Positions 14,228-24,286 of a stretch of 32,551 nucleotides of DNA are shown piece after piece. The position numbers and the translations under genes are program-made. The notes under the pieces are model-generated. The model worked only from the letters and a program-made list of their open reading frames with translations, did not search any database and was not told where the DNA came from. Position 1 is the first letter of the stretch; every line of letters begins with the position of its first letter. The stretch comes from Clostridiales bacterium (GTDB taxonomy: Bacteria; Bacillota; Clostridia; HGM11327): NCBI GenBank assembly GCA_015056475.1, contig SVGF01000008.1, forward strand, positions 1 through 32,551, read 5' to 3'.

Positions 14228-14256
14228 TTGACTTTGTAATAACTTGGTTGTATAAT
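14228..14256 (+). promoter_or_regulatory. Promoter of the glycine-rich membrane protein gene
   Basis: TTGACT (14228-14233) and TATAAT (14251-14256) with a 17-base spacer. It lies after the purine terminator, so the downstream gene is an independent transcription unit with a leader of about 40 bases. Confidence 0.8.
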
Positions 14257-14301
14257 AATAGTATCAACTCAAATTATATTATAAAAAAGGAGGAAAAAAT
14301 T

Positions 14302-15234
14302 ATGCCCGGACCCGGAGGAGGCTCAAGAGGCGGCGGATTTGGCGGCGGATCAAGAGGTAGCTTTGGCGGAGGCTCAAGAGGTGGCTTTGGTGGTGGCTTT
14401 GGCGGACATCACAGCGGATTCCACGGAGGCTTTTACAGACCAAGACCGCATTTTTATATTCCGTTTTTTGGAAGAAGAAGATATTACGGCGGAGGTTGCT
14501 TTAACGGCATAGCCACGTTGTTGATAGTTGCTGTGGTTTTGCTCGGCACGATAGGTACAACGCTCTCGTCTGCAATAAAGACCATTGCAAATGGCGGTGC
14601 TGTAGAATATAATGAAAGAGCATTTCAAACTTATGCAGATGCTGAGTATGCAAAGGAATTTGGAGCATCTGAGGAAGGACTCTTGTTGGTATTCTTAACA
14701 GAGGAATCTGCTGACGGTTATTATGCTATTGCATGGTGCGGAGATAGTCTGCCCACAAGAATCAAAGACTTGTTCGGTGACGAAACTACAGTATTCGGTA
14801 GGACGGTAACGTCATGCATCAATAATGAGTATTATGCATATTCCCTTGACTCAAACCTCGCAAGTGTTATGGAAAATATGGCAGATTATATCGACGATAT
14901 GAATATTGATCTGTCCCACACAATGCCCGATGGCTTCAAGAATTTTAAGCCGCACATGAACAACTATACCGAATTTTCACTTACTGAAGCAACAGTAAAC
15001 AAAGGTATTGAGTATTTCTGTAACAAAACAAAAATTCCCACGGTTATAGTTGTTGACGATATGGAAAAGGTTTTTGGTAAGACCATATTCACAGGCGACG
15101 TTCAGCTGCTTTTGTTTGCGCTTTTAATCCTTGCTATTATTTTGGTTGCAGTTTTTAAGAGCAAAAATAATAACAATAACAGTCAGCAGGGTAATAATAA
15201 CACCTATAATAACTACAATTCAGATTTTCAGTAA
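14302..15234 (+). CDS. Glycine-rich two-segment membrane protein of unknown function
   Basis: 310 residues. The ATG at 14302 follows an ideal AAGGAGG. Residues 3-46 are built from Gly-Gly-Gly-Ser-Arg and Gly-Gly-Phe units, followed by an Arg/Tyr/Phe patch (45-62). A hydrophobic segment at about 68-88 is followed by a roughly 175-residue soluble domain with four Cys (146, 172, 240 and, before the first membrane segment, 66). A second hydrophobic segment lies at about 267-286, and the tail (288-310) is rich in Asn and Gln. Basic residues flank both hydrophobic segments, suggesting cytoplasmic ends and an external central domain (inference). The stretch around 108-150 (YADAEYAKEFG, then EEGLLLVFL) faintly resembles the TPM/YgcG fold, which is often paired with glycine-rich tails. 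I do not assign a function. Confidence 0.85.
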   Translation: MPGPGGGSRGGGFGGGSRGSFGGGSRGGFGGGFGGHHSGFHGGFYRPRPHFYIPFFGRRRYYGGGCFNGIATLLIVAVVLLGTIGTTLSSAIKTIANGGAVEYNERAFQTYADAEYAKEFGASEEGLLLVFLTEESADGYYAIAWCGDSLPTRIKDLFGDETTVFGRTVTSCINNEYYAYSLDSNLASVMENMADYIDDMNIDLSHTMPDGFKNFKPHMNNYTEFSLTEATVNKGIEYFCNKTKIPTVIVVDDMEKVFGKTIFTGDVQLLLFALLILAIILVAVFKSKNNNNNSQQGNNNTYNNYNSDFQ

Positions 15235-15285: not shown

Positions 15286-16098
15286 TTACTTTTTCTTTTG
15301 AGCTAAATAATCACCAAAATCAATGCAGTTTACACCAAGCTCCGCAATAATTGCTTCAGCTATTTCAGAGCCCGCTCTTAAAGCCAAGCTGGCGTGGCAA
15401 TCGGTCGTTATTATAACCGTGCCACCCTTTTGCTTTATGAATTCAAGCATCTGTCGCGTTGGGTACGGAGTTGAACGGTAGGACTTTGATATCGCACCCG
15501 TATTGACTTCAACAAATCTTGTTTTATCCTGAAGTAATGCCTCAAGCGCAGGCTTCCATATCTTTCCGTATTCCTCGCTCTGATCGTCAAACATCACTTG
15601 ATTTTCGTTGAATTTTGCAATAAGATCAAAATGACCTACGATATCACATTTGTTTTTGAGGTTGTGATCAACCAATGATTCGTAATAATCCTTTGCGTAT
15701 GCATAATAATCACCACCGTAAAGCTCCGTAACCGCCTTTTCGGTAACTGATGCAGCAAGATCTACGTCCATTACTACTCCGCCCTTTTTAATAGTATGTA
15801 CTGAGCCAATCGTATAATCAAACTGATCCAAAGGAAGGTCGGACGTTGAGTCAAGCTCAAGACCGCAATAAATATCTATTGAGTTTTTATACTTATTTTT
15901 AAGTGCATGTATCTCTGCAATATAAGACGGAATTGCATTCCTTTTCATGCTCCATCCGGAAACGTAATCTGCTCCCGGTGCGTGATCGGAAAAACCTAAC
16001 GACGTAAAATTGAACTCAATGGCTCTTTGTACCATTACCTCCGGCTCATTGTTACCGTCGCTATATATAGAATGTGTGTGAAAATTCGAACGTATCAT
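15286..16098 (-). CDS. hisK: Histidinol-phosphatase, PHP family (HisK/HisJ type)
   Basis: 270 residues, the usual length for PHP-type histidinol-phosphate phosphatases. Metal-binding motifs are in order: FHTHSIYSDG at the N-terminus, SDHAPG, GLELDS, GSVHTI, GHFDLIAKFN and TTDCHA near the C-terminus. It removes phosphate from histidinol phosphate, the eighth step of histidine synthesis. Because hisB here lacks a phosphatase domain, this enzyme is needed to complete the pathway. The ATG at 16098 follows AAAGGAGAAAT. It is the last gene of the operon, directly before the terminator. Confidence 0.92.
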   Translation of the reverse strand: MIRSNFHTHSIYSDGNNEPEVMVQRAIEFNFTSLGFSDHAPGADYVSGWSMKRNAIPSYIAEIHALKNKYKNSIDIYCGLELDSTSDLPLDQFDYTIGSVHTIKKGGVVMDVDLAASVTEKAVTELYGGDYYAYAKDYYESLVDHNLKNKCDIVGHFDLIAKFNENQVMFDDQSEEYGKIWKPALEALLQDKTRFVEVNTGAISKSYRSTPYPTRQMLEFIKQKGGTVIITTDCHASLALRAGSEIAEAIIAELGVNCIDFGDYLAQKKK

Positions 16099-16107
16099 AT
16101 TTCTCCT

Positions 16108-16329
16108 TTATTCTTCACTAAGAAGTGCTATCGCAACCTTGTAAAGCGGATCATATTCGCATCCGCAATCACCGCATTCCTCATCAGCCTGTTTTAGTGC
16201 TTTGATGAGGTCCGCTTTATTATCCGCGCCGTTAAGATAAGCAAGGCACGGCACGTCAATAAGCTCCCAACCGGATTCTGAAAGCTTTATAAGCACGTCA
16301 ACAAGATCTTTATCCAACGGTTTTCTCAT
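16108..16329 (-). CDS. Small cysteine-containing protein of the histidine operon, unknown function
   Basis: 73 residues, acidic, not recognised. The ATG (16329-16327) overlaps the hisIE TGA (16328-16326) in an ATGA junction, with AGGAG at 16345-16341, so it is translationally coupled to hisIE. Residues 1-50 look helical with a central GWELIDVPCLAYLNG segment. Then comes CGDCGC (Cys52, 55, 57), which with Cys28 could bind a metal or cluster, although this is inference. No signal peptide or membrane segment is visible. The downstream hisK begins 9 bases later. All ten pathway steps are assigned to other genes, so a role as regulator, chaperone or metal carrier is possible but unproven. Confidence 0.85.
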   Translation of the reverse strand: MRKPLDKDLVDVLIKLSESGWELIDVPCLAYLNGADNKADLIKALKQADEECGDCGCEYDPLYKVAIALLSEE

Positions 16330-16976
16330 TTTGTCATCTTCTCCTGCTTTACCTTGTGATCTATCACGTGGCGCGATGCAAGCTCCTTATGAATATCCTC
16401 TACCGAGATTCCCATCTGCACCATGAGCACCATTACGTGATATGCAAGGTCTGCTATCTCGTAGATAGTTTCCTTTTTGTCATCAGCTTTACCTGCAATA
16501 ATAACCTCAGTGCACTCCTCGCCAACCTTTTTGAGTATCTTGTCGATGCCTTTTTCAAAAAGGTAGGTTGTGTACGAGCCCTCGGGGCGCTGTTCATTTC
16601 TGCCAACCAAAAGGTCGTAAAGCCCCTGCATTGAGAATTCCGAAAGCTCATCGCTGTCCCATACTCTGTCGTTAAAGCATGAATCCGTGCCCTTATGACA
16701 AGCAGGACCGTCCTTTTCAACCACCACAACAAGTGCATCCTTGTCGCAATCTGCCGTTATAGAAACAATGTGCTGGTAATTGCCGCTTGTTTCACCCTTA
16801 AGCCAAAGCTCTTGTCTTGATCTGCTCCAAAAGCAAGTAAGACCCTTTTCCATTGATATTTGGAGGCTTTCTCTGTTCATATATGCGAGAGTAAGCACTT
16901 TTTTACTGATTGAATCTACTACTATTGCGGGAATAAGACCCTTTTCGTCAAATTTTAATTCGTCGATATTTATCAT
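16326..16976 (-). CDS. hisIE: Bifunctional phosphoribosyl-AMP cyclohydrolase / phosphoribosyl-ATP pyrophosphatase
   Basis: A 216-residue fusion catalysing steps two and three of histidine synthesis. The N-terminal cyclohydrolase (about 1-110) has CFWSRSRQELWLKGETSG and DCDKDALVVVVE with the downstream GPACH zinc motif. The C-terminal pyrophosphatase (about 120-205) has EGSYTTYLFEKG, KKVGEECTEVIIAGK and EIADLAYHVMVLM. The ATG at 16976 has AAGGAGAAAAT upstream. It lies 12 bases after hisF and is coupled to the small unknown gene by a 3-base overlap. Confidence 0.96.
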   Translation of the reverse strand: MINIDELKFDEKGLIPAIVVDSISKKVLTLAYMNRESLQISMEKGLTCFWSRSRQELWLKGETSGNYQHIVSITADCDKDALVVVVEKDGPACHKGTDSCFNDRVWDSDELSEFSMQGLYDLLVGRNEQRPEGSYTTYLFEKGIDKILKKVGEECTEVIIAGKADDKKETIYEIADLAYHVMVLMVQMGISVEDIHKELASRHVIDHKVKQEKMTK

Positions 16977-16988
16977 ATTTTCTCCTTA

Positions 16989-17750
16989 TTATTTAATTCT
17001 CATTGTAATGCCGTTTTGAGCAAGCGTTTGCTTGAGGTCGGGAATCATTACCTCGCCAAAATGGAATATTGATGCCGCAAGGCCTGCGTCAACCTTGGGC
17101 AATGTATTGAACAAAGTTACAAAATCTTCCTTTGATCCCGCACCGCCCGATGCAATAACAGGGACGTTTACCACCTTGCAAACTGCATCTAACATTTCAA
17201 TGTCAAAACCTTTTTTAACGCCGTCAGTATCTATTGAGTTTACAACAACTTCGCCTGCGCCCATATCTACACAGCGCTTGATCCATGAAATCGCTTCCAT
17301 GCCGGTATCTTCTCTGCCACCCTTGGCAAAAACTCTGAATTCACCGTCTACTCTCTTTACGTCAACAGAAAGCACAACACATTGATCGCCGTATTTACGT
17401 GCAGCATCCTCAACGAGCTGAGGGTTTCTGATCGCGCCGGAATTTACGCTCACCTTGTCTGCTCCGCAATTGAGCACGCGTTCAAAATCATCAACAGTAT
17501 TTATACCACCGCCAACGGTTAGCGGAATGAATATTGTGCTTGCAACCTTTGTGAGTATGTCTGTAAAAAGGCTTCTGCCCTCTGCCGATGCCGTTATATC
17601 GTAAAAAACAAGCTCATCTGCGCCATTGTCGCTGTAATACTTTGCAAGCTCAACGGGTGACGAAACGTCATTCAGACCTTCAAAATTAACACCCTTAACA
17701 ACTCTGCCGTTTTTAACGTCGAGACAGGGAATAATTCTTTTTGTTATCAT
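16989..17750 (-). CDS. hisF: Imidazole glycerol phosphate synthase cyclase subunit HisF
   Basis: A 253-residue (beta/alpha)8 enzyme that, with HisH, converts PRFAR and ammonia to imidazole glycerol phosphate and AICAR. The catalytic residues Asp11 (IIPCLDVKNGRVVKGVNF) and Asp130 (LSVDVKR) are present, as are the phosphate loops TVGGGI and ASGGAG. The ATG (17750-17748) overlaps the hisA TGA (17749-17747) in an ATGA junction, implying coupled translation. The AICAR released is a substrate for the transformylase in the purine operon. Confidence 0.97.
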   Translation of the reverse strand: MITKRIIPCLDVKNGRVVKGVNFEGLNDVSSPVELAKYYSDNGADELVFYDITASAEGRSLFTDILTKVASTIFIPLTVGGGINTVDDFERVLNCGADKVSVNSGAIRNPQLVEDAARKYGDQCVVLSVDVKRVDGEFRVFAKGGREDTGMEAISWIKRCVDMGAGEVVVNSIDTDGVKKGFDIEMLDAVCKVVNVPVIASGGAGSKEDFVTLFNTLPKVDAGLAASIFHFGEVMIPDLKQTLAQNGITMRIK

Positions 17751-18460
17751 TTTGCCACCTCGCAGGCTTCTTTCAAATCGATCGCACCCGTATAATACGC
17801 TTTGCCGATTATTGCGCCGTAAATATTCATCTCTTTTAACGCCTTTACGTCGTCAATGGATGAAACACCGCCGGATGCTATCACGTTCATTGAATACTTC
17901 TTTGAAAGGTGTTGATAAAGCTCACGGTTCGTACCCTTCATCGCGCCATCCTTTGAAATATCGGTACAGATTATTGTTTTAACACCCATATCCTGCATTT
18001 TTCTGCAGAATACATCCAACGTGAACGCAGAATTCTCAGTCCAACCCTTTATCGCAACAAAGCCGTCCTTTACGTCAATTCCAACAACTATCTTGTCACC
18101 GTAATCAGCCAATGCGTCAATCAAAAGTCCATCATCCTTTACAGCCGCAGTACCCAGGATTATTCTGTCAACGCCAATGTCCACGTATTTTTTAATAACG
18201 TCCATTGAGCGAATACCGCCCCCTATTTCAGCAGAAAGATCAGTATTCTCCACTATGCGTTTGACGGTTTGGATATTTGGTGTATCACCGTTTTTTGCGC
18301 CCTCAAGGTCAACAATGTGAATATGCGTTGCGCCGCAACGTTCAAAATCCTTTGCAACCTCTAAAGGGTCATCGTTATACACGGTCACCTGATCATAATC
18401 TCCCTTATAAAGACGCACAGCCTTGCCGTCTATTATATCTATTGCAGGTAAAATTATCAT
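17747..18460 (-). CDS. hisA: ProFAR isomerase HisA
   Basis: A 237-residue (beta/alpha)8 isomerase converting ProFAR to PRFAR. The catalytic aspartates fit Asp8 (LPAIDIIDGKAVRLYKGDY) and Asp129 (VGIDVKDG). GGGIRS and ASGGVSS are the phosphate-binding loops. It starts 6 bases after the hisH stop, with GGAG inside the hisH end, and overlaps hisF by 3 bases. Confidence 0.96.
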   Translation of the reverse strand: MIILPAIDIIDGKAVRLYKGDYDQVTVYNDDPLEVAKDFERCGATHIHIVDLEGAKNGDTPNIQTVKRIVENTDLSAEIGGGIRSMDVIKKYVDIGVDRIILGTAAVKDDGLLIDALADYGDKIVVGIDVKDGFVAIKGWTENSAFTLDVFCRKMQDMGVKTIICTDISKDGAMKGTNRELYQHLSKKYSMNVIASGGVSSIDDVKALKEMNIYGAIIGKAYYTGAIDLKEACEVAK

Positions 18461-18466
18461 TTTCTA

Positions 18467-19081
18467 TCACTCCATTTCACAAAACGCTTTGAGTATATTC
18501 AACCCTACATTTCCGCTTTTTTCGGGATGGAATTGACATCCGTAGACGTTCTTTGACTGTACTGCTGCGGTAATTTCCTTGCCGTATTCAGCAGTTGCAA
18601 TCACAGCATCATCACAGCCATCTGCATAATAGGAATGCACAAAATATACGCAATCGTTTTCACTTATATATTTGAAAAGCTCGCTCTTATTTTTTGTAAA
18701 ATGCAGCGCATTCCAGCCTATGTGCGGAATTTTAAGATCGGATGGGATAGTGCCATCCATTGGGATAACACTCCCCTTTATGAGCCCCAAGCCCTTGTGC
18801 TCACCGTATTCAAAGCTTTTTTCAAACAACATCTGCATACCAAGGCATATGCCGAGTATGGGCTTGCCCTTTTGCGCCTCACTTATAAGAACCTTGTCCA
18901 ACCCCGATGCTCTGAGCTTTTCGGCGGCGTCCTCAAATGCTCCAACGCCCGGAAGGATTATTTTATCAGCATTACGAATGGTTGCTTCATCCCCGCTGAC
19001 AATGATTTCTGCCCCTATGCTCTCAAACGATGATTTAAGCGAAAACAGATTGCCAACACCGTAATCAACTATCGCTATCAT
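18467..19081 (-). CDS. hisH: Imidazole glycerol phosphate synthase glutaminase subunit HisH
   Basis: A 204-residue class I glutaminase that feeds ammonia to HisF. The triad Cys79 (GICLGMQ), His185 and Glu187 (QFHPEKSG) is complete. The start is set at ATG 19081, which opens on the canonical MIAIVDYGVGN and overlaps the hisB TGA in an ATGA junction. The frame is open for 31 more codons upstream, but that stretch is hisB read in another frame. Confidence 0.96.
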   Translation of the reverse strand: MIAIVDYGVGNLFSLKSSFESIGAEIIVSGDEATIRNADKIILPGVGAFEDAAEKLRASGLDKVLISEAQKGKPILGICLGMQMLFEKSFEYGEHKGLGLIKGSVIPMDGTIPSDLKIPHIGWNALHFTKNKSELFKYISENDCVYFVHSYYADGCDDAVIATAEYGKEITAAVQSKNVYGCQFHPEKSGNVGLNILKAFCEME

Positions 19082-19665
19082 AATACGCCCTTTGTTGAGG
19101 GAATTTCGTCCCTGTACTGCTCGTCTATCTTGACAGCTTCTTTGAGGCAACGTGCAACAGCCTTGAATGCACACTCAGCAATGTGGTGAGAATTTGTGCC
19201 GTCAAGCTTCTTTATGTGTAGTGTAAGGTTTGCACTTCTTACAAACGCCCACCAGAATTCCTCAATAAGCTCGCTGTCAAAGTCGCCAATTTTTGGCGTT
19301 GGAATATCAAGAGTGTATCTCAGCATGCTTCTGCCCGAAATATCAACTGCCGCCAGAACGAGAGCCTCATCCATGGGGAGAGTAACGTCACCATATCTGT
19401 TAATACCGCGCTTGTCACCGATCACTCTTACAAAAGCTTCACCCAAACAAATACCGATATCCTCAACGGTGTGGTGGTAATCAACGTAGGTATCACCTTG
19501 GCAGTCAACCGTGATATCAAATCTTGAGTGACGCGCAAATAGAGTCAACATGTGATCCAAAAAACCGCATCCGCTTGAAATATTGCTCTTGCCACTTCCA
19601 TCAAGATCCAAATAAAGTCGGATCTTTGTTTCAGCAGTATTTCTGACTATTTCTATATTTCTCAT
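19078..19665 (-). CDS. hisB: Imidazoleglycerol-phosphate dehydratase HisB (monofunctional)
   Basis: 195 residues, catalysing step six. It contains GCGFLDHMLTLFARH, DYHHTVEDIG, KRGINRYG and the C-terminal HHIAECAFKAVARCL metal-binding histidine motifs. It lacks the N-terminal phosphatase domain of enterobacterial HisB, matching the presence of hisK. The ATG at 19665 shares one base with the hisC stop (TAATG) and follows GGGAGAATT. Confidence 0.96.
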   Translation of the reverse strand: MRNIEIVRNTAETKIRLYLDLDGSGKSNISSGCGFLDHMLTLFARHSRFDITVDCQGDTYVDYHHTVEDIGICLGEAFVRVIGDKRGINRYGDVTLPMDEALVLAAVDISGRSMLRYTLDIPTPKIGDFDSELIEEFWWAFVRSANLTLHIKKLDGTNSHHIAECAFKAVARCLKEAVKIDEQYRDEIPSTKGVL

Positions 19666-20726
19666 TATAATTCTCCCAAAATTTCTTTCGTTACGTTTAT
19701 AAAGCACTCCATTTGCTCGGGAGTACCTATTGTTACTCTGTTGTACTCTGTTATTTTGTCCTTTGAAAAGTGCCTTACAAGCACACCTCTTGCTTTTAAT
19801 TCTTTATAAAACCGCTCGCCGCTAATGCTTTTATTCTTTACGAAAAGGAAATTAGTGCTCGAATCAAGAACCTCAAACCCCAGATCAATTAGTTTTGCCT
19901 TTGTTGACTCTCGTGTTTTGATAATTTGCTTGCAGTTTTCCATATAATAATCATTATCAACAAGCGCTGCTACACCGCAAGCCATTGTCATTCTGTTTAC
20001 GTTGTAGGGGTTTGTAGAAAACCTCAAAGTATTCATGTCTCTTATAAGCTCCTCGTTTGCAATCGCAAAGCCAAGTCGCGCGCCTGCCATGGATCTTGAT
20101 TTTGAAAAGGTCTGAACAACTATCAGGTTTGAATATTTATTGATCAAGCTGACAGCACTATCTGAACCAAAATCAACGTAGGCTTCGTCAATTATAACGA
20201 TATTGTCAGGATTAGATGCAATGATCCTCTCAATTTTATCAAGGGAAAGTGCTATACCCGTTGGAGCGTTAGGATTTGCGATAACGACATTTTTACCGCA
20301 TGAACAGTAATCGTCAACGTTTATGGTGAAGTCGTCGCAAAGTGGTATCTCCTCATATGGAATATTATTTAACTCCGCAAACACGGGATAAAAGCCGTAC
20401 GTAATATCCGGAAAAGCTATCGGACGGTCCTGATCGCAAAAAGCCATGAATGCAAAATTCAACGCTTCATCAGAGCCGTTGGTACATATTACGTTTGACC
20501 TTGACACCCCATAAATCTTTGAAATTTGCTCTGTGAGCGACGTTATTTCAGGGTCAGAATACAAATTCAGCAATCCCGCCTGTTGTTTTGCGGCGTCAAT
20601 TACTGACTGTGACGGTGGATACGGTGATTCGTTTGTATTGAGCTTTACATACTGCATGTCGCGAGGCTGTTCACCCGGCACGTATGCTTTGAGCTTGTCA
20701 TATTTATGACTGAAGAATCTGCTCAT
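19665..20726 (-). CDS. hisC: Histidinol-phosphate aminotransferase HisC
   Basis: A 353-residue class I/II PLP aminotransferase. KLNTNESPYPPS near residue 30 is the substrate-side motif, NPNAPTG and IIDEAYVDF (Asp180) bind the cofactor, and Lys209 in TFSKSRSMAGARLGF forms the Schiff base. It catalyses step seven. The ATG shares a base with the hisD TAA (TAATG), so translation is probably coupled. Confidence 0.96.
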   Translation of the reverse strand: MSRFFSHKYDKLKAYVPGEQPRDMQYVKLNTNESPYPPSQSVIDAAKQQAGLLNLYSDPEITSLTEQISKIYGVSRSNVICTNGSDEALNFAFMAFCDQDRPIAFPDITYGFYPVFAELNNIPYEEIPLCDDFTINVDDYCSCGKNVVIANPNAPTGIALSLDKIERIIASNPDNIVIIDEAYVDFGSDSAVSLINKYSNLIVVQTFSKSRSMAGARLGFAIANEELIRDMNTLRFSTNPYNVNRMTMACGVAALVDNDYYMENCKQIIKTRESTKAKLIDLGFEVLDSSTNFLFVKNKSISGERFYKELKARGVLVRHFSKDKITEYNRVTIGTPEQMECFINVTKEILGEL

Positions 20727-22009
20727 TAATTATTCTCCTCGTCGAGCCTTATCGTGGCACTCCTTGCATGAGCTGTGAGGCCTTCCTTTTCTGCAAAATA
20801 CGAAACATCACGAGCTACCTTAGCCAAAGCTTCCTTTGTGTAGTAGGTATACTGTGTCTTCTTTACAAAATCGTCAACCGACAACGGGCTTGAGAATCTC
20901 GCCGTACCGCTTGTGGGAAGCGTGTGGTTAGGCCCTGCAAAATAATCGCCCAAAGCCTCGGGACAGTTCTTACCCATAAAAATTGAACCTGCATGCTTGA
21001 TGGCATCAAGATAATCAAATGGATTATCCACGCAAAGTTCAAGATGTTCGGGAGCAAGCTCATTTGCAATGTCAATTGCGACCTTAATGTCGTCCGCAAC
21101 GATTATTTTTCCATTATTATCAATGGATGCTCTTGCAATCTGGGCTCTTGAGAGAGTTTCTAACTGTTTTTCTATCTCCTGTTGAACAGCCTTCGCAAGG
21201 TCCATGCTGTCAGTTACAAGTACAGCACTTGCCATTTTGTCATGCTCAGCCTGCGAAAGAAGGTCAGCCGCTACGTACGCAGGATTGCACGTTGCATCCG
21301 CAACAACAAGTATTTCGCTTGGTCCTGCGATCATATCAATGGAAACGCGTCCGAATACCTGCTTTTTTGCCTCAGCAACAAAGGCATTACCGGGACCAAC
21401 TATCTTGTCAACCTTAGGTATGGACTGCGTTCCGTATGCCAACGCTGCAACAGCCTGTGCACCGCCAACCTTGAATATTCTGTCAACACCTGCAATTTTT
21501 GCAGCAGCAAGAATAACGGGGTTTACCTTGCCTTCTTTATTTGGTGGAGTTGTGATCACTATCTCTTTACATCCCGCAATTTTTGCAGGAACTGAATCCA
21601 TCAGTACTGTTGAAGGATAAGCAGCTGTGCCACCCGGCACGTAAAGGCCAACCTTTTCTATAGGAATAACCTTCTGACCTACCACCACACCCTCGTTCTC
21701 GTTTATTATGAAGCTGTTTTTAACCTGTCGCTTGTGGAATGAACGAATATTTTCTGCCGCAGCCTTTAATATTCCAATAAACTTATCATCTACAAGTTCA
21801 AAAGCTTCGTCAATTTCTTCCTGCGTTACCTCAAGAGAAGTAAGGTCAGCGCCATCAAATTTTTTGTTGTACTCAAACAGCGCATCATCACCATTCTTAA
21901 CAACGTTATCGATTATCTCTGTAACGATGCCTTCAACGTCCGGCGCAATATTTTCGCGGGCAAATATCTCACTGTTTGGTACATTGCCATATTTCAATAT
22001 TTTTATCAT
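20726..22009 (-). CDS. hisD: Histidinol dehydrogenase HisD
   Basis: A 427-residue zinc and NAD enzyme oxidising histidinol to histidine (steps nine and ten). Family blocks are PGGTAAYPSTVLM, KVGGAQAVAALAYGT, VGPGNAFVAEAKKQVFG, DLLSQAEHD with the zinc Gln and His, and GPNHTLPTSGTARFSSPLSV. Length is normal. The ATG at 22009 is preceded by AAAGG, 16 bases after the hisG stop. Confidence 0.97.
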   Translation of the reverse strand: MIKILKYGNVPNSEIFARENIAPDVEGIVTEIIDNVVKNGDDALFEYNKKFDGADLTSLEVTQEEIDEAFELVDDKFIGILKAAAENIRSFHKRQVKNSFIINENEGVVVGQKVIPIEKVGLYVPGGTAAYPSTVLMDSVPAKIAGCKEIVITTPPNKEGKVNPVILAAAKIAGVDRIFKVGGAQAVAALAYGTQSIPKVDKIVGPGNAFVAEAKKQVFGRVSIDMIAGPSEILVVADATCNPAYVAADLLSQAEHDKMASAVLVTDSMDLAKAVQQEIEKQLETLSRAQIARASIDNNGKIIVADDIKVAIDIANELAPEHLELCVDNPFDYLDAIKHAGSIFMGKNCPEALGDYFAGPNHTLPTSGTARFSSPLSVDDFVKKTQYTYYTKEALAKVARDVSYFAEKEGLTAHARSATIRLDEENN

Positions 22010-22025
22010 AATAAACCTTTCTTAA

Positions 22026-22655
22026 TTACTTACGTGCTTTTGTAAGCTCATCCAACGACTGCGAGATCCTTTCGATCTCATTGGACTTAAATCTGAAGCT
22101 CGCCTTATTTGCAATGAGCCTTGCGCTGATCGGAACTATTGTTTCAAACGGCTCAAGGTCATTTTCCTTGAGTGTTGTACCTGTTTCAACGATATCAACG
22201 ATTACGTCGGAAAGACCAAGGATCGGCGCGATCTCTATAGAGCCGTTCAGTTTGATAATGTCGATATCACGACACTTTGATGCGTAATAATTCTTTGCAA
22301 TATTAACAAACTTAGTTGCAACCCTGAGTGTTTTATCGGGATTATCGCGGAAATCCTTTTTTGCTGCAACAGCCATTCTGCACTTGCCGATATCAAGGTC
22401 GCAAAGCTCAAAAACGTCGGGCTCATATTCAAGCAGGATATCCTTGCCCGCAACGCCGATGTCGGCAGCGCCTCTTTCAACGTAAATTGCAACGTCGGAC
22501 GGCTTTACCCAGAAATATCTGATGCCTTTTTCTTTGTTTTCAAATATGAGCTTACGGCTATTTTCTTTTATAGAGGGACATTCATAGCCCGAAAGTTCAA
22601 ACATATCATAGACCTTTTCACCAAGTCTACCTTTTGGAAGTGCTACGTTTATCAT
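22026..22655 (-). CDS. hisG: ATP phosphoribosyltransferase catalytic subunit HisG, short form
   Basis: 209 residues, which fits the short HisG class (about 200-215) lacking the C-terminal histidine-binding domain; the long form is about 290. The N-terminus INVALPKGRLGEKV and the later DIVETGTTLKENDLE PRPP-type loop are diagnostic. It catalyses the committed step from ATP and PRPP. Short HisG requires HisZ, and hisZ is directly upstream: its TGA overlaps the hisG ATG by 3 bases, with AAGGAGGGG inside hisZ. Confidence 0.96.
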   Translation of the reverse strand: MINVALPKGRLGEKVYDMFELSGYECPSIKENSRKLIFENKEKGIRYFWVKPSDVAIYVERGAADIGVAGKDILLEYEPDVFELCDLDIGKCRMAVAAKKDFRDNPDKTLRVATKFVNIAKNYYASKCRDIDIIKLNGSIEIAPILGLSDVIVDIVETGTTLKENDLEPFETIVPISARLIANKASFRFKSNEIERISQSLDELTKARK

Positions 22656-23788
22656 ATATTCCCCTCCTTAAATATGATGTTGCCGTCAGCCGACAGCTGT
22701 GCTACTGATCTGTATTTTAACTTTTGAGGAACGATTTTTTGTGCTGTAACTGTAGAATATTGAGCAGTCAAGTTCTTAACGGCATCCATTACGATATTAA
22801 CGCTTACATTATTATTGTAGAGCAAAAGCACGTCAACATCATAAGCCTTGCTTTGAGTATCCATATATTCAAGCACATCTAAATATACTGCAAAACCAAT
22901 CGCTCCGGACGTTCTTGACATCTTTTTGAGTAATCTATCGTACCTGCCACCCGAAAGAACGCTGTCGGGAATACCGTTGATAAAGCCCTTAAAAACGATT
23001 CCGTTGTAATAACTCATTCCATTTGCAATCGAAAAGTCAAGGCGAAGCTTTGACTTGATAGGATCAGATCCAAGCGCGTCAGATATTAATTGAAGCTCAT
23101 CAATAATATCATCTGCCCACTCGCCGAGGTCAAGTGCTTTGAGCTTGTTAATAACAGAATCCATATCGCCGTATATCGATATAAACTTACAGAGCTTGTC
23201 GCAAATGCTCTGCTCTATTCCGTTTTCTGCACATATCCTTAACAGATCGTGAGCATTTTTACTTGTAATACACTCAATTATAGCTGACTTTGTGACGTCA
23301 TTTGCACCCGTCATCTCCAAAAGACCAAAGATTATACCCATATGTGAAACATCAAGCACATAATCGGGTGAGATCGTTTCCAAACTTTTAGCCGCAAGCG
23401 AAAGTACTTCTATCACGTTATACGTATCAATATCTCCAATGCACTCAAGTCCCGTTTGCATAATTTCGCGGTACGTTTCTGTACGAGAAGATACTCTATA
23501 TACGTTTTCATTATAGTATACCTTATTCACAAAGCCGTCAACGTCTGTGGAATTTTTAACTATAGACAAAGTAACGTCGGGCTTGAGCGCCAAAAGTCTG
23601 CCATCTGTGTCGTTAAACGTTATAACGCTTTCACTAACAAGAAAATCACGATTTCTGACATAGAGATCATACTCCTCAAACTTGCTCATCTTGTATGGGC
23701 GATAACCGTATGCCGTATATAATGAGCGAAGCTTAAAGACAATATCTTCTTCGTATTTAATAATATTTGTTACAGGATCATTCTTCAT
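22652..23788 (-). CDS. hisZ: ATP phosphoribosyltransferase regulatory subunit HisZ
   Basis: A 378-residue histidyl-tRNA synthetase paralogue without aminoacylation function that activates HisG and carries histidine feedback. The HisRS-like core shows LRPDV-type LLALKPDVTLSIVK, a motif 2-like YRVSSRTETYREIMQTGLECIG and a motif 3-like LSGGRYDRLL. The C-terminus is short and lacks the normal tRNA-binding domain. The start is set at ATG 23788 after AAAGGAGCGC, which overlaps the yerC stop by 11 bases; the frame extends 17 codons further upstream without a ribosome site. Confidence 0.93.
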   Translation of the reverse strand: MKNDPVTNIIKYEEDIVFKLRSLYTAYGYRPYKMSKFEEYDLYVRNRDFLVSESVITFNDTDGRLLALKPDVTLSIVKNSTDVDGFVNKVYYNENVYRVSSRTETYREIMQTGLECIGDIDTYNVIEVLSLAAKSLETISPDYVLDVSHMGIIFGLLEMTGANDVTKSAIIECITSKNAHDLLRICAENGIEQSICDKLCKFISIYGDMDSVINKLKALDLGEWADDIIDELQLISDALGSDPIKSKLRLDFSIANGMSYYNGIVFKGFINGIPDSVLSGGRYDRLLKKMSRTSGAIGFAVYLDVLEYMDTQSKAYDVDVLLLYNNNVSVNIVMDAVKNLTAQYSTVTAQKIVPQKLKYRSVAQLSADGNIIFKEGNI

Positions 23789-24080
23789 TTTGCGCTCCTT
23801 TGTTAAGCCTGTCCATAACAAGCTTATAACCATCAGCACCGTACGTCAGGCACTTGTTAACTCTGGAAATAGTTGCCGTGCTTGCACCGGTCTTGGTGCT
23901 TATCACCGAATAACTCTCACCCTGATCAAGCAATTTTGCAACCTCCAGACGTTGCGCTATCTCCGTGAGTTCTTTGATTGTGCACGCATCTTCAAAAAAA
24001 GCGTAGCATTCGTCTATATTTTTTAGTGTTAATATAGCAGTAAACAAATTATCTATTGATTCCGAATGAAAATCGACCAT
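23778..24080 (-). CDS. yerC: YerC/YecD-type TrpR-family transcriptional regulator
   Basis: 100 residues, matching the TrpR-related YerC/YecD family. Helical N-terminus (1-50) is followed by a helix-turn-helix around 53-77, with ISTKTGASTATISRVNKCL as turn and recognition helix. Comparative work has proposed members of this family as histidine-responsive repressors (HisR) in Firmicutes. Its place as first gene of the his operon, and palindromes over its own promoter, fit autoregulation and control of the whole operon. This is inference. The ATG at 24080 follows AAGGAG. Confidence 0.9.
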   Translation of the reverse strand: MVDFHSESIDNLFTAILTLKNIDECYAFFEDACTIKELTEIAQRLEVAKLLDQGESYSVISTKTGASTATISRVNKCLTYGADGYKLVMDRLNKGAQNEE

Positions 24081-24103
24081 TATTTTACTCCTTACAATAA
24101 AAT

Positions 24104-24113
24104 AAAGCGCTTT
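24104..24113. promoter_or_regulatory. Perfect 10-bp palindrome AAAGCGCTTT in the his leader
   Basis: AAAGCGCTTT is fully self-complementary. It repeats the AGCGCT core of the neighbouring 20-bp palindrome, with 16 bases between the two centres (about one and a half helical turns). It lies just upstream of the yerC ribosome site. Confidence 0.45.
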
Positions 24114-24114
24114 T

Positions 24115-24134
24115 ACACTTTAGCGCTTTAGTGT
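24115..24134. promoter_or_regulatory. 20-bp near-palindrome, candidate YerC/HisR operator
   Basis: The arms ACACT and AGTGT flank a central AGCGCT; only two symmetric position pairs fail to match. It lies at or just after the predicted start of transcription of the histidine operon. Its size and ACT/AGT ends recall TrpR-type operators. Binding by YerC is inferred. Confidence 0.5.
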
Positions 24135-24150
24135 GATATAAGTATATCAC
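24133..24150. promoter_or_regulatory. Palindrome GTGATATA-2-TATATCAC over the his promoter -10
   Basis: A perfect 8-bp inverted repeat with 2-base centre covers the -10 hexamer (24146-24141). A protein bound here would block RNA polymerase. It adjoins the 20-bp near-palindrome on its downstream side. Confidence 0.5.
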
Positions 24151-24169
24151 TAAACCTTAATATTGTCAA
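24141..24169 (-). promoter_or_regulatory. Promoter of the histidine operon
   Basis: On the minus strand TTGACA (24169-24164) and TATACT (24146-24141) are spaced by 17 bases. The leader to yerC is about 55 bases, too short for a T-box or a long attenuator. Control is more likely at initiation. Confidence 0.8.
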
Positions 24170-24258
24170 TAGGTAAAATGAAAAAAATGACAAAATTTAT
24201 AAAAATTATTATAAAACCACAATTTGAATTTTATATTGAATTATCCGAATATAAAATT

Positions 24259-24281
24259 AAGCTACTCTTACAGAGTAGCTT
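24259..24281 (-). terminator. Probable terminator of the arsR-family gene
   Basis: A 10-bp stem, AAGCTACTCT with AGAGTAGCTT, and a 3-base loop lie just past the stop codon at 24287. On the minus strand it is followed by AATTTTATATT, a weak T-rich tract. Confidence 0.65.
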
Positions 24282-24286
24282 ATGTA

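Follow-up and report, generated by a model that had tools for sequence, protein, structure and literature searches.

The his promoter and its proposed operator

Which bases in front of a histidine operon are recognised by a repressor that the operon's own first gene encodes? Control of his operons by HisR (YerC), with autoregulation, is already known: the open text of PMC9413887 describes HisR as a repressor of his operons in Firmicutes that depends on histidine and often controls its own gene, gives cacTTTAnnnnnnTAAAgtg as its consensus for most Firmicutes, reports autoregulation of hisR in nearly half of genomes and shows that R. gnavus HisR binds a 20-bp site in a histidine-dependent manner. 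The window analysed here, a stretch of 32,551 nucleotides, belongs to a genome of 1.99 Mb (~79% complete) whose closest named relatives, among the 80 listed of 170, are gut Clostridia assemblies. It carries a his operon with the following surroundings.

23778-24080, minus strand: hisR (yerC), TrpR-family repressor of 100 aa (TIGR02531), with PDB relatives 3frw, 3g1c and 3kor
16326-23839, minus strand: hisZ, hisG, hisD, hisC, hisB, hisH, hisA, hisF and hisIE in this order, by family matches
15286-16098, minus strand: HisJ-family histidinol-phosphatase (TIGR01856, 124.7 bits, cut-off 90.2)
24258-24282, minus strand: terminator-like hairpin that separates the his promoter from the ArsR-family gene upstream of it

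The first gene had been described as TrpR-like, and its family matches confirm this (136.2 bits to TIGR02531 against a cut-off of 42.2, and also PF01371). Its product is close to these three solved structures, of which 3g1c is the E. eligens HisR discussed in the open text of PMC9413887, and the link to histidine biosynthesis is provided by hisZGDCBHAF-IE and the HisJ-family gene downstream. HisZ (22652-23839) is divergent, scoring 205 bits, under the NCBIfam equivalog cut-off of 271.65. A 73-aa frame between hisIE and the HisJ-family gene (16108-16329) has no Pfam or NCBIfam match, and a 328-aa plus-strand frame without a Pfam match (14248-15234) adjoins the end of the operon.

The initial annotation had also placed a perfect inverted repeat on the -10 hexamer of a promoter with 17-bp spacing and had taken it for the operator of a self-limiting, histidine-responsive repressor. 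Both the repeat, GTGATATAAGTATATCAC, which is exact at 24133-24150 with 8-bp arms, and the promoter are present: the minus strand reads TTGACA (24169-24164), 17 bp and TATACT (24146-24141), an 11/12 match to the consensus with TG preceding the -10.

24164-24169, minus strand: -35 box TTGACA of the his promoter, invariant in 3/3 same-genus sequences
24141-24149, minus strand: extended -10 box TGA-TATACT, its TG and TATA invariant in 3/3 same-genus sequences
24133-24150, either strand: inverted repeat GTGATATA-AG-TATATCAC, an exact sequence match
24134, minus strand: predicted transcription start, at the A of the CA that follows the -10 by five bases

Read on the minus strand the repeat is GTGATATACTTATATCAC and covers the extended -10; one arm is the extended -10 itself and the other comprises the bases up to the predicted start. 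The start was placed at 24134 because CA at this offset is the peak among the extended -10 promoters of the genome, of which the pattern TTGACA-N14-TGnTAnnnT retrieves 93 from the two strands combined, whereas its reversal retrieves 2; CA lies five bases past the -10 in 26 of the 93, with 14 at the next most frequent offset.

The symmetry on the -10 as promoter grammar

How unusual the repeat is depends on what is asked of it. As a sequence it exceeds chance, with 0.12 matches to GTGATATAAGTATATCAC at up to three mismatches expected per shuffled window. As an inverted repeat it does so less: the window holds 9 perfect inverted repeats of at least 8 bp with a loop of up to 10, against 5.2 (sd 2.5) in 40 shuffles. 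Four of this kind lie in the 206 bp upstream of hisR, against 0.19 in shuffles, and the neighbouring one at 24103-24130, which directly adjoins the -10 repeat, is the longer, with 9-bp arms. As symmetry on an extended -10 element it does not exceed chance. The grammar TGn-TATAAT-N5-CA is partly self-symmetric, TGn...CA being itself a mirror, and the his promoter scores 8 of 9 mirrored pairs; a score of at least 8 is reached by 1 of the 93 real promoters, against 0.8 expected when upstream halves are paired with downstream halves of other promoters in the set.

The same conclusion is suggested by the rest of the genome, where the repeat with three mismatches is enriched (28 matches against 5 per strand for the reversed pattern). 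Several of those inspected among the 28 are promoters of unrelated genes, and we therefore read the excess as promoter grammar. The second-best symmetric -10, GTGATAAAATAATATCAC, stands ahead of a T-box leader and trpB, not a histidine gene (1354-1633 of locus L127, contig C86); the T-box match scores 82.7 bits with E 2.2e-18 and so stays short of the gathering score, which is 93. The repeat thus appears to arise mainly from the chance mirroring of an extended -10 element by a CA start.

A candidate HisR operator beside the -10

Next to the repeat, beginning at the predicted start, lies the stretch that matches the published HisR consensus best.

24116-24135, minus strand: best HisR-consensus match CACACTAAAGCGCTAAAGTG, 12/14 (consensus from the open text of PMC9413887)
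24107-24138, minus strand: array of 8-bp period, TATCACAC TAAAGCGC TAAAGTGT AAAAGCGC, in direct reading

A site near cacTTTAnnnnnnTAAAgtg is thus found upstream of hisR, its right half matching 7/7 and its left half 5/7, and it encloses the conserved stretch 24116-24130 (minus strand, TAAAGCGCTAAAGTG). The candidate operator is at the same time a direct repeat of 8-bp period, TAAAGCGC TAAAGTGT. These two middle units are the firm part of the array and are kept in 3/3 same-genus sequences; in steps of 8 the reading can be continued at either end, to TATCACAC and to AAAAGCGC. The likely landing site of HisR adjoins the -10 repeat and takes the form of half-sites eight letters apart. By eye, TATCACAC (24138-24131) keeps the 8-bp register of the TAAAG repeats, and the arms of the -10 repeat show the 13-bp offset of HisR half-sites, so the array may begin with a degenerate unit in the right arm of the repeat.

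Taken alone, the consensus is not rare. With up to three mismatches it gives 93 matches per strand in the genome against 123 for the reversed pattern, and for this reason it is too weak for genome-wide target finding. With one or two mismatches it matches at 8 places besides the his promoter, 5 of which were inspected; four of these (L227, L230, L233 and L239) lie inside reading frames and were rejected as HisR targets. The fifth, CACTTTATCACGTTAAAGGA (L128:2434-2453, contig C133:8433-8452), is intergenic with 12/14 to the consensus, and the ribosome site that it overlaps belongs to a probable lipoprotein of 496 aa that has no Pfam or NCBIfam match. A two-unit pattern with two mismatches (52 matches against 38 for the control) was too loose to define a regulon.

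Half-sites recur at 8 bp across hisR upstream regions

We assembled 172 non-redundant hisR upstream regions out of 194 loci: 80 from relatives (of 170), 4 from the window's family, and 30 plus 80 from a listing of 204 genomes, the last 80 being picked by hand down the listing and covering part of it. The 22 loci dropped either had a similarity above 78% over the final 140 bp or measured less than 120 bp; start codons were set by rule, and two of the loci (L002 and L006) are the same contig. Of the 172 regions, 78 contain the HisR consensus at 11/14 or better, where shuffles give 3.3 (maximum 6).

Exact TAAAG/TAAAG or CTTTA/CTTTA pairs 8 bp apart occur in 18/172 regions, against a mean of 0.24 and a maximum of 2 in 200 dinucleotide shuffles. 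Distances from CTTTA to TAAAG peak at 11 (13 regions), 19 (5) and 27 (3), again in steps of 8, and the decoy words GAAAT and TAAAC show no peak at distance 8 in the 172 regions. Near the 78 consensus sites, further exact half-sites stand at +8 in 8/78 and at -8 in 10/77, and none was found at offsets 4, 6, 7, 9, 10, 11 or 12. An additional peak of exact matches at -5 (9/78) may reflect a CTTTACT -35 box. When 4/5 matches are admitted and TATAA words excluded, a neighbour at 8 is seen in 47/78, a count inflated by -10 boxes like TAAAAT; at this stringency part of the signal at plus or minus 8 can stem from -10 (TAAAAT) and -35 boxes. In the remaining 154 of the 172 regions an exact 8-bp pair is missing, in many of them because hisR is not autoregulated there.

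The arrangement of the units varies. Three regions (L204, L209 and L028) are double palindromes of the form CTTTA-CTTTA-TAAAA-TAAAG/GAAAG. In three others (L005, L017 and L025), the stretch past the -10 shows an 8-bp recurrence of units that begin with TA, with TAGCAC/TATCAC-like words replacing TAAAGTG; these could possibly reflect a HisR of other half-site specificity.

Conservation separates the array from the repeat

Two other genomes of the same genus, G001 and G002, both with hisR, were aligned with the window (n=3); a fourth genome of the family has a more distant hisR copy and no comparable site. TTGACA, GTGATATA and TAAAGCGnTAAAG are invariant in 3/3 sequences. The left arm, which is the promoter's TGn-TATA, is the only repeat arm that survives in both relatives; the right arm, TATATCAC, reads TTAGTCCG in G001 (3/8) and TATGCCGT in G002 (4/8). 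In G001 the array stands at a distance of 9 from the -10, in the window at 10. Across the 172 upstream regions, the -10 repeat is matched within three mismatches in 3, the window's included (0.1 in shuffles).

These data bear on a joint reading, in which a longer tandem array would run from the -10 into the leader and have the -10 repeat as its first, weak dimer site. The register and the 13-bp arm offset in the window argue for it, as do the left arm and the register in G002, but the register is off by one in G001 and the right arm is not conserved, and we regard this arrangement as unlikely.

The proposal that the repeat itself is the HisR operator, with one dimer on GTGATATA/TATATCAC, has in its favour the perfect symmetry on the -10, the 7-mers AGTGATA and TATCACA that start 13 bp apart like HisR half-sites, the register of TATCACAC with the TAAAG units, and the TAGCAC/TATCAC-like units after the -10 in L005, L017 and L025 (Oscillospiraceae/Clostridia/Ruminococcus). 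Against it, TATCACA has only TA in common with TAAAGTG, the base missing between the -10 and the array of G001 breaks the register, and the same symmetric -10 is found at the unrelated T-box-trpB promoter. We dropped the repeat as operator because its right arm is lost in the relatives and 3/172 upstream regions match; conservation upstream of yerC, which the annotation had named as a check, is thus not seen. On these sequence comparisons the repeat is probably not a HisR operator, and its recognition by a single dimer strikes us as quite improbable.

Upstream of hisR there is also the adjoining repeat.

24103-24130, minus strand: perfect 9-bp inverted repeat with a 10-base loop, a possible leader hairpin, absent from G001 and G002

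That this hairpin followed by ATTTTATT acts as a transcription attenuator, as its 9-bp stem and the folding of the leader at -13.5 kcal/mol (z -2.75) might suggest, is very improbable and was rejected: the hairpin is not conserved in G001 or G002, a histidine leader peptide would not fit into the 54-base leader, and the surrounding 3 kb gave no Rfam match at gathering score, T-box and His leader RNAs included.

A model for autoregulation and its relation to known systems

We consider it likely that this is an autoregulated hisR-his promoter at which HisR with histidine acts on a start-site array of half-sites, the mirror on the -10 being mainly promoter grammar. RNA polymerase would use TTGACA-17-TGATATACT; histidine-loaded HisR would bind TAAAGYG-type half-sites, every 8 bp from about the transcription start, occupying 24135 down to 24115 and perhaps to 24107. 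Holo-HisR on the array would cover the start site and block initiation, and histidine would thereby turn down the his pathway and hisR together. Several points count against this model: the HisR consensus is not rare in the genome, the left half of the 20-mer is the weaker one and the best score in G002 is only 9/14, part of the 8-bp signal at 4/5 can stem from promoter boxes, 154 regions lack an exact pair, and in the window the right arm of the -10 repeat shares the register of the array. Of the control first proposed, the self-limiting response to histidine agrees with what PMC9413887 reports, in its open text, for the HisR family and with the gene order; the repeat as its operator is probably wrong. 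The model corrects which bases to test as operator and shows that extended -10 promoter grammar can pass for an operator palindrome.

Occupancy by tandem HisR dimers is suggested by the 8-bp period together with the paired dimers of TrpR: the open text of PMC8745587 reports that a pair of E. coli TrpR dimers binds synthetic operators in tandem, cooperatively. A broader reading, to which we give an even chance, is that HisR operators generally are modular TAAAG half-site arrays on an 8-bp lattice, placed between -35 and -10 in some clades and at the start site here, on which at least two dimers would stack cooperatively, so that array length and placement would set the sharpness of histidine shut-off. 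We found no report of such a lattice for HisR in the open literature text; in the main text of PMC9413887, 'direct repeat' and 'overlapping' are absent and 'tandem' is used for other matters only. As far as open text shows, the lattice is therefore undescribed for HisR. If it is bound in tandem, models of HisR sites as one 20-bp palindrome would miss half-sites and misplace weak sites.

With extended -10 sigma-A promoters the his promoter shares TTGACA-N14-TGnTAnnnT and the CA start five bases on, and it differs in that it happens to lengthen the mirror to 8 bp. With the HisR regulons of PMC9413887, to the extent of its open text, it shares a TrpR-family protein encoded first in or near the his operon and the cacTTTAnnnnnnTAAAgtg consensus; common autoregulation and histidine as corepressor are further traits of those regulons. 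The site described there is a single 20-bp palindrome, whereas here and in related promoters the half-sites follow an 8-bp period, as direct repeats or double palindromes.

E. coli TrpR differs from the HisR studied here in corepressor and half-site. The TrpR half-site is CTAG/GNACT, and a CTAG-type operator is not found here, with no CTAG in 24078-24175. An eight-base-pair spacer between TrpR half-sites is nevertheless cited in the open text of PMC9413887, and tandem binding, reported for TrpR (PMC8745587, open text), is for HisR what we infer from sequence. Should the lattice be bound in this way, tandem binding would be common to HisR and TrpR, although the two differ in operator and ligand.
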